From Brassica napus (lineage: Eukaryota; Streptophyta; Magnoliopsida; Brassicales; Brassicaceae), in assembly GCF_020379485.1 (NCBI RefSeq), contig NC_063438.1, positions 3,596,001-3,660,000 on the forward strand: a stretch of 64,000 nucleotides of DNA, read 5' to 3'. Under the pieces are notes generated by a model. That model was not told the DNA's origin, searched no databases, and saw nothing but the letters and a program-made list of their open reading frames with translations. Both the position numbers and the translations under genes were made by a program. Of this stretch, positions 27,733-29,688 are shown piece by piece; positions within the stretch are counted from its first letter, which is position 1; each line of letters begins with the position of its first letter.

Positions 27733-29688
27733 ATGGTGAAAATGGCTAAATCTGTTACTTTCTCAACCTCTTCTTCTGCGTCAAACCTTTCATCTCATCC
27801 TTCTTTCACTTCTCTTGCTTCTTTCAATTCTCTTCCTGCTTCTCCACTCAACCAGCACTTTTCTCAGTCCATGATGGAGGAAGCCTTAGAGTCTGCAGAG
27901 TCAATCATCAAGAAGTGGGATCCTAACTCACAGTCCTACAGGAAGATCATCTCTCTGTTCAGACACAGCAGAAAACAAGCCAAAGAATTCATCGGATGCG
28001 TCCGTGACTTACGCAGAGCCATGCACTTTCTTGTCTCTCAAGACTCCAAATCTGACAAGCTTGTGCTTGCCCAGAACCTGATGCAGATTGGTATGTCCAT
28101 GCTGGAGAAAGAGTTCTTTCAGATACTGTCTTCTAACCGAGACCATCTTGATCCTGATTCTGCCTCTGGTCAGTCCACAATATCTAGCAATTCAGAGTTC
28201 GAAGTTTATATGGAATATGATGAGGATGATGATGATGATGATGATGAGCTTAAGAAGGCTGGTGAATCCATCTCACAGGTGGAGAAAGCCTCAGCTCTGG
28301 TGATGTCAGACTTAAAGGTCATAGCAGAGACCATGATCAGTTGTGGTTATGGTAAAGAGTGCATAAAAAGCTATAAGTTGATCAGAAAGTCTATTGTTGA
28401 TGAAGGGCTACACTTGCTTGGGATTGAGAAGGTCAAGAACTCTCAGTTTCACAAAATGGACTGGGGAGTCCTCGAGGTTATGATCAAGAACTGGATCAAA
28501 GCTGCAAATATTGGAGTCACGACACTCTTCAAAGGAGAGAAGCTTCTCTGCGACCACGTCTTCTCTGCATCCCTTACAATAGGACAGTCTTGCTTTAACC
28601 AGATAGCAAAGGAAGCAGGTCTCAATCTCTTCACGTTGCCGGAGTTGGTAGCCCACAAGGAGAAGAAACAACACCACCATGAGAGGATCTTTAAGCTGAT
28701 GGATCTCTATGCAGCTATCTCTGACCTTTGGCCAGACATAGAAATGATATTCAGCTTTGATTCGTTAGCTTCTGTGAAGACTCTTGTTCTATCAACGCTC
28801 AAGAAACTCAAGGACTCTATCCACACATGTCTCAAGGAGTTCGAGACGATGATACACAAGGATTCTTCTAAAGAACTTTCCCCTGAAGGAGGGGTTCACA
28901 AGCTGACTCGGACAACGATGAGTTTCATATCATCGTTGTCTGAATACAGCCGTGTGTTGTCTGAGATTCTCGCAGAGCATCCTCTTAAGACAAACACTCG
29001 CTTGCTAGAATCTTACTTCACGGCTCCTATCTTGGAAGATGAACACGTCAACAACCATGCCTGCTCGGTCCATATTGCTTGGCTCATACTGGTTTTCCTA
29101 TGCAAGCTAGACACCAAAGCAGAGAGTTACAATGATGTGTCTCTCTCTTACATCTTCCTTGTGAACAACTTGCAGTTTGTGGTTGATACAGTTCGTTCAA
29201 GTCAACTCAAGAACCTCATAGGAGACGATTGGCTCACTAAGCACGAGGCAAAACTCAAAAGCTATGCTGAAAAGTACGAGAAAGCAGCTTGGACTAATGT
29301 TTTTCTATCATTACCTGCAAAAACAAGTGCCAAGCTATTACCGGAGGAGGCCACTACATGTTTCAAGAGGTTTCACGCAGCATTCGCAGGAGCATACTTG
29401 AAACAATCATCATGTGTTATAGTGGATGCTAAGCTTAGGGACGAGCTTAAGGTTTCTATAGCGAGGAAACTTGTACCGGAGTACAGAGAGTTTTACGAGA
29501 AGTACTTGCCAATGCTGAGGCAGGACAGAAACATAGAGATGTTGGTGAGTTTTAAGCCTGATAACTTGGAGAATTATCTCTCGGATCTTTTCCATGGAAC
29601 ACCAATGCTCGGTGGCTCTTCTCATTCTGCTGCTTCTGCTTCTTTGTCTTCTCCATCTTGTTTCTCAATAAGATGTGTAAAACACTAA
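27733..29688 (+). CDS. EXO70H2: Exocyst subunit EXO70H2-like, gene 3 (chimeric)
   Basis: Single exon. From the ATG at 27733 (gccATGG context, matching MEKM/MAKM starts of genes 1 and 2) it encodes 651 aa. The frame is open for 25 more codons upstream, but that ATG is inside the TATA box. Domains are as in its sisters: Ser-rich leader with a SFTSLASFNSL repeat, acidic run DEDDDDDDDE, Exo70 domain about 245-625. Up to 28578 it carries the bases of gene 4, and from 28608 those of gene 2, with one exception at 28692. The switch falls at about residues 282-292 inside the Exo70 domain. The protein is fully open and should be functional. Confidence 0.92.
   Translation: MVKMAKSVTFSTSSSASNLSSHPSFTSLASFNSLPASPLNQHFSQSMMEEALESAESIIKKWDPNSQSYRKIISLFRHSRKQAKEFIGCVRDLRRAMHFLVSQDSKSDKLVLAQNLMQIGMSMLEKEFFQILSSNRDHLDPDSASGQSTISSNSEFEVYMEYDEDDDDDDDELKKAGESISQVEKASALVMSDLKVIAETMISCGYGKECIKSYKLIRKSIVDEGLHLLGIEKVKNSQFHKMDWGVLEVMIKNWIKAANIGVTTLFKGEKLLCDHVFSASLTIGQSCFNQIAKEAGLNLFTLPELVAHKEKKQHHHERIFKLMDLYAAISDLWPDIEMIFSFDSLASVKTLVLSTLKKLKDSIHTCLKEFETMIHKDSSKELSPEGGVHKLTRTTMSFISSLSEYSRVLSEILAEHPLKTNTRLLESYFTAPILEDEHVNNHACSVHIAWLILVFLCKLDTKAESYNDVSLSYIFLVNNLQFVVDTVRSSQLKNLIGDDWLTKHEAKLKSYAEKYEKAAWTNVFLSLPAKTSAKLLPEEATTCFKRFHAAFAGAYLKQSSCVIVDAKLRDELKVSIARKLVPEYREFYEKYLPMLRQDRNIEMLVSFKPDNLENYLSDLFHGTPMLGGSSHSAASASLSSPSCFSIRCVKH

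Follow-up and report, generated by a model that had tools for sequence, protein, structure and literature searches.

A chimeric EXO70H2 gene in a Brassica napus tandem array, probably formed by unequal crossing-over between two of its neighbours

Meiotic unequal crossing-over between the tandem RBCS genes of Arabidopsis has reportedly been shown to give chimeric genes in an experimental system, whereas the gene described here is a natural event. Natural chimeras of this sort are already known, and one example is maize Rp1-D21, which arose when tandem paralogues of more than 90% identity recombined intragenically (PMC4342346). The locus examined here is similar in that intragenic recombination between tandem paralogues would account for a chimeric gene. 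However, Rp1 is an NLR resistance cluster whose chimera has a lesion-mimic phenotype, whereas the genes concerned here encode exocyst subunits.

Two further comparisons lie closer to the gene family itself. The A. thaliana genes SEC10a and SEC10b are a tandem exocyst duplicate, and an assembly had collapsed the pair to one chimeric locus (PMC3984084). Both cases concern exocyst subunit genes duplicated in tandem in a member of the Brassicaceae, but the SEC10 pair was reduced by assembly, whereas here the assembly contains an extra copy, a chimera that joins two paralogues already diverged. For EXO70H2, which is At2g39380 in Arabidopsis, PMC4871884 gives EXO70H gene names and locus numbers, and its A. 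thaliana table has one EXO70H2 locus. The Brassica genes belong to the same family, with the same Exo70_N and Exo70_C domains, but where that table has a single A. thaliana locus (PMC4871884), the DNA analysed here holds four related genes and a decayed fragment. Among the titles listed from one open-access library, none names this locus, which is not proof that it is unreported.

An array of EXO70H2-type genes

The stretch of B. napus DNA that was analysed, 64,000 nt long and called the window below, contains four uninterrupted EXO70H2-type genes, all on the + strand:

9651..11567, + strand: EXO70H2 gene 1; ORF of 638 aa with Pfam support; a more distant copy in the array, used for comparison
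16812..18743, + strand: EXO70H2 gene 2; ORF of 643 aa with Exo70_N and Exo70_C; source of the 3' part of gene 3
27733..29688, + strand: EXO70H2 gene 3; 651 aa; chimera, 5' part of gene 4 type and 3' part of gene 2 type
38712..40667, + strand: EXO70H2 gene 4; ORF of 651 aa with Pfam support; source of the 5' part of gene 3

Exo70_N and Exo70_C exceed the Pfam cut-offs in all four genes, and in gene 3 they span residues 51-133 (5.8e-20) and 252-618 (3.2e-104), respectively. Relatives were compared as proteins: 7,995 candidates were scored, giving 651 matches, of which the best 120 were used. Among these best 120 of 651 matches, the specific names near the top are mainly Brassicaceae EXO70H1 and EXO70H2, together with some automatic EXO70A1-like names, and the nearest named proteins point to gene 3 being a member of the EXO70H clade. 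Its protein is 78% identical to A. thaliana protein P0031. The closest proteins among these matches come from Brassica: the gene 1 protein is 99.4% identical to B. rapa subsp. trilocularis protein P0020, and the gene 4 protein is 99.0% identical to B. rapa protein P0001. Such matches suggest that the window derives from a Brassica A genome, that of B. rapa or a near relative. Because the protein set is clustered at 90% identity, the presence of gene 3 in another B. rapa line would be hidden in this comparison.

For genes 3 and 4 we adopted the ATG that most close relatives use as the start. A further ATG lies in frame 25 codons upstream in both genes (27658-27732 and 38637-38711), and the annotation of P0001 begins there, perhaps as an over-extension.

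Traces of other copies may surround the intact genes. A decayed Exo70 fragment lies 3' of gene 4 at 41258-41519, where the longer alignment contains stops; its best stretch covers 34 residues at 59% identity (E about 5e-8), and 53 bp at 41328-41380 are 83% identical. These remains suggest that the array includes a fifth member, now dead. Ahead of genes 3 and 4, the segments 25279-25482 and 36266-36469 resemble the 3' flank of genes 1-3; no gene immediately precedes them, and they are perhaps the trace of a lost copy. The genes neighbouring the array presumably correspond to the At2g39340-At2g39380 block, which they resemble, and ABC transporter domains are recognized by Pfam at 54760-56994.

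The change of parent inside gene 3

An earlier note on this DNA had described gene 3 as a fusion of gene 4 upstream and gene 2 downstream, with a crossover inside about 29 bp. We aligned genes 2, 3 and 4 over the block that corresponds to 27242-29707 in gene 3 coordinates, counting ungapped substitution sites and treating gapped columns apart. Up to position 28578, gene 3 carries the gene 4 base at each of the 152 sites at which genes 2 and 4 differ, and from 28608 on it carries the gene 2 base at 42 of 43 such sites. The coding sequence accounts for 59 of the left and 40 of the right sites. Gapped columns follow the same division, being gene-4-like in 72 of 72 cases on the left and gene-2-like in the only case on the right. 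Upstream of the gene, one base, 27377, is private to gene 3. That such a mosaic pattern arose by chance is not credible, and the chimera stands as it had been described.

The individual bases on which the proposal rested are likewise correct: gene 3 has T at 28575 and A at 28578 where gene 2 has C and G, and A at 28608 where gene 4 has C (39587). Positions 28578 and 28608 are the last gene-4-specific and the first gene-2-specific base, so that the interval between them measures exactly the length proposed:

28579..28607, + strand: crossover interval of 29 bp, identical in genes 2, 3 and 4; codons 283-292

The reading frame is intact across this interval, and gene 3 is, as had been claimed, a third fully open gene, with 651 aa from the ATG at 27733. 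At the protein level, residues 1-282 are those of gene 4 (282/282) and residues 293-651 are those of gene 2 (359/359). Trees built from the two parts conflict accordingly, the N-terminal part of gene 3 grouping with gene 4 and P0001 (support 100) and the C-terminal part with gene 2 (support 99).

The expectation that diagnostic sites plotted along gene 3 would reveal a single switch holds for all sites but one:

28692, + strand: discordant silent site; C in genes 1 and 2, T in genes 3 and 4

This site, the third base of codon 320, lies downstream of the switch and is gene-4-like. If it is taken at face value, one switch becomes three. At the background rate, the expected number of coincident mutations that match gene 4 over all 43 sites is 0.03 if one in three matches and 0.09 if every one does. 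Its origin may lie in a coincident mutation that is silent, in an allelic difference, with a T-bearing gene 2 allele on the other homologue, or in a short conversion patch at the crossover, and each of these must be allowed for.

A special sequence at the crossover was also considered and finds no support in the aligned block, which contains 18 identical gene 2/gene 4 tracts longer than the 29-bp interval. The longest of these measures 249 bp and may postdate the exchange.

The tandem unit and how the fusion may have arisen

The change of parent extends beyond the gene. It had been noted that the flanks of gene 3 switch together with the gene, the upstream spacer being of gene 4 type and the downstream spacer of gene 2 type, and the full comparison bears this out, because the DNA from gene 2 to gene 4 can be divided into two successive copies of one unit:

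17634..28607, unstranded: tandem unit A; from the 3' part of gene 2 through the spacer into the 5' part of gene 3; each end placed only to within the 29-bp interval
28579..39586, unstranded: tandem unit B; from the 3' part of gene 3 through the spacer into the 5' part of gene 4; each end placed only to within the 29-bp interval

With the switch set as their boundary, the two units, which put the size of the duplication at about 10.95-10.98 kb, show 25 substitutions (0.23%) across an alignment of 10,951 bases, together with 10 indels, the largest of 54, 10 and 8 bp. Their ends coincide with the point at which the parent switches in genes 2, 3 and 4. Both ends of the duplicated unit thus fall at the same position in an EXO70H2 gene, as unequal crossing-over between genes 2 and 4 predicts.

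In such an event, gene 4 of one chromatid would have recombined with gene 2 of the other inside the coding sequence. The upstream DNA and the first ~283-292 codons of gene 4 would have been placed ahead of the remainder of gene 2, and the same exchange would have duplicated the ~10.95-10.98 kb that separates the two crossover points. In favor of a single exchange are the change of parent at one place and the highly supported conflict between the N- and C-part trees. Against it stand the discordant site at 28692 and the fact that the 29-bp interval is not a favoured stretch, given the longer identical tracts elsewhere in the block.

Other routes could lead to the same product, and the first to be weighed is an error of assembly, in which two haplotypes of one gene 1-gene 2-gene 4 region were placed in tandem with a false join of gene 4 to gene 2. 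The 0.23% difference between the units would suit allelic divergence too, and the misassembled SEC10 tandem exocyst pair of A. thaliana, with its one chimeric locus, offers a precedent (PMC3984084). However, that error lost a copy, whereas here one would have to be added. The false join would also be needed in exact register within 29 identical bases, between flanks that differ at 17 of 300 positions on the left and 9 of 300 on the right. Since 29 identical bases would probably be too short for ordinary overlaps, we regard an artefact as unlikely.

Replication template switching or break-induced replication, passing from gene 4 into gene 2 without a crossover, would likewise leave one junction inside 29 identical bp, and the discordant site could then be a second template switch. 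Yet the junction keeps exact register inside 2.4 kb of homology (16309-18762 and 38221-40685, 90% identical), for which homologous exchange is the simpler account, making the replicative route quite improbable in our judgment. A mosaic of secondary origin, with an ordinary tandem duplicate formed first and part of gene 3 converted later, could draw on the probable occurrence of conversion at this locus, as in the gene-2-type tract of gene 4 described below. Such a conversion, however, must end where the spacer duplication begins and ends, and the flanking spacers switch with the gene, so that we give this order of events very little credence.

We consider it likely, with good confidence, that a single non-allelic homologous exchange (unequal crossing-over) between gene 4 and gene 2 gave rise to gene 3. 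This cause, which the earlier note had proposed, is the simplest one, and our analysis reproduces the chimera and its direction as well as the 29-bp interval and the linked duplication of the spacer; that a crossover produced them, and not another route to the same product, is what we infer. The mechanism is an ordinary one, recorded with unusual clarity: the record is base-resolved and little eroded, with the crossover within coding sequence and the matching tandem unit still in place.

The gene had furthermore been called fresh. Divergence between the units is indeed low, and at a substitution rate of 7e-9 per site per generation the 0.23% corresponds to about 160,000 generations, but this figure is an upper bound on age and not a date, because the exchanging homologues may already have differed beforehand. 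If they did, the duplication may be much younger. The differences comprise 18 transitions and 7 transversions, an excess of transitions that looks like natural divergence and not sequencing noise. Purifying selection on gene 3 since the duplication is not claimed, given that 1 substitution among its 1,956 coding bases, compared with 24 among the 8,995 remaining ones, yields p = 0.11 (Fisher, two-sided); the value of 0.014 obtained by leaving the discordant site out of the same comparison is not used as evidence.

Several minor features of the spacers can be recorded here. A 54-bp stretch in the spacer after gene 3 (30011) is missing after gene 2 (19073), and no other copy of it was found in the window. 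Each spacer copy contains two tandem copies of a 218-bp unit (20481-20917 and 31472-31908). Five of the 25 unit differences are packed into 56 bp (25109-25164 against 36096-36151).

A gene-2-type tract in gene 4 and the fused protein

Gene 4, one of the parents of gene 3, is probably itself a mosaic:

39830..40211, + strand: probable conversion tract, gene-2-type, in gene 4; 1 mismatch to gene 2 in 382 bp; 28851-29232 in gene 3 coordinates

The tract is composed of identical gene 2/gene 4 tracts of 249 and 132 bp. Its lone mismatch compares with 40 differences in the 1,080 coding bases from the switch on (tract included) and 59 in the 819 before the switch. Runs of 28 consecutive variable sites at which gene 2 equals gene 4, or of 21 when third codon positions are considered, occurred in 0 of 20,000 shuffles each, in a shuffling procedure that ignores relatedness.

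The B. rapa protein P0001 departs from gene 4 at seven residues, which all fall in the range 301-506. Three of them, 414, 448 and 496, belong to the tract; there gene 4 shares the residue of gene 2 and P0001 has that of several other Brassica proteins, although at 414 the gene 2 residue is also found in other proteins, including gene 1. The other four residues are less telling. Residue 301 has the same pattern but lies outside the tract, past sites where genes 2 and 4 differ. At 351, 389 and 506, the residues of P0001 are found in none of the compared rows. These comparisons suggest that gene 4 was probably converted by gene 2 or by gene 3, which are identical there; a change in the lineage of P0001 could possibly explain the contrast instead. 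A simple single crossover would send the 3' part of the participating gene 4 to the reciprocal product, and hence the present gene 4 was presumably not the partner and its tract is probably a separate event. The tract lies near the position that corresponds to the crossover in gene 3.

Taken more broadly, the cluster might be an actively recombining array that makes ever-new combinations of Exo70 N- and C-terminal parts by crossing-over and conversion, as in resistance-gene clusters, so that exocyst subunits would differ between plants of one species. We regard this wider reading as conceivable but doubtful.

Gene 3 had also been said to hold a new combination of Exo70 domain halves. The word halves is loose, because codons 283-292 fall 30-40 residues inside Exo70_C (252-618) and not at a domain boundary. 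Moreover, the proteins of genes 2 and 4 are identical over residues 260-372, and therefore the effective switch in the protein can be placed anywhere between 259 and 373.

Gene 3 retains the rare residues of the gene 4 N-terminal part at 70, 88 and 259, each found in 1 of 35 relatives. At 586 and 618 it has the common residues of gene 2 (29/35 and 34/35 relatives), from which gene 4 departs. The gene 2 C-terminal part brings rare residues of its own, L536 (0/35 relatives) and M373 (3/35), and for this reason we make no claim that the fusion improves the protein.

The gene 3 product may be a working Exo70 subunit, and its expression would presumably be driven by gene 4-type regulatory DNA. If the gene is expressed, the upstream DNA and N-terminal part of gene 4 operate with the C-terminal part of gene 2, and this natural swap could help to trace the role of an EXO70H protein to one of its parts. 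At the locus, three near-alike copies would complicate both knock-outs and read mapping.

Elsewhere in the window, a long non-LTR retroelement, which we take to be L1-like, occupies 604-6073 on the minus strand, with a 1222-aa ORF of reverse-transcriptase type and a 300-aa ORF. A stretch of 22 T (614-635) adjoins one of two copies of a 10-base sequence (604-613 and 6064-6073), an arrangement that resembles a poly-A tail next to a target-site duplication; the window has one further occurrence of this 10-base sequence, at 50454.
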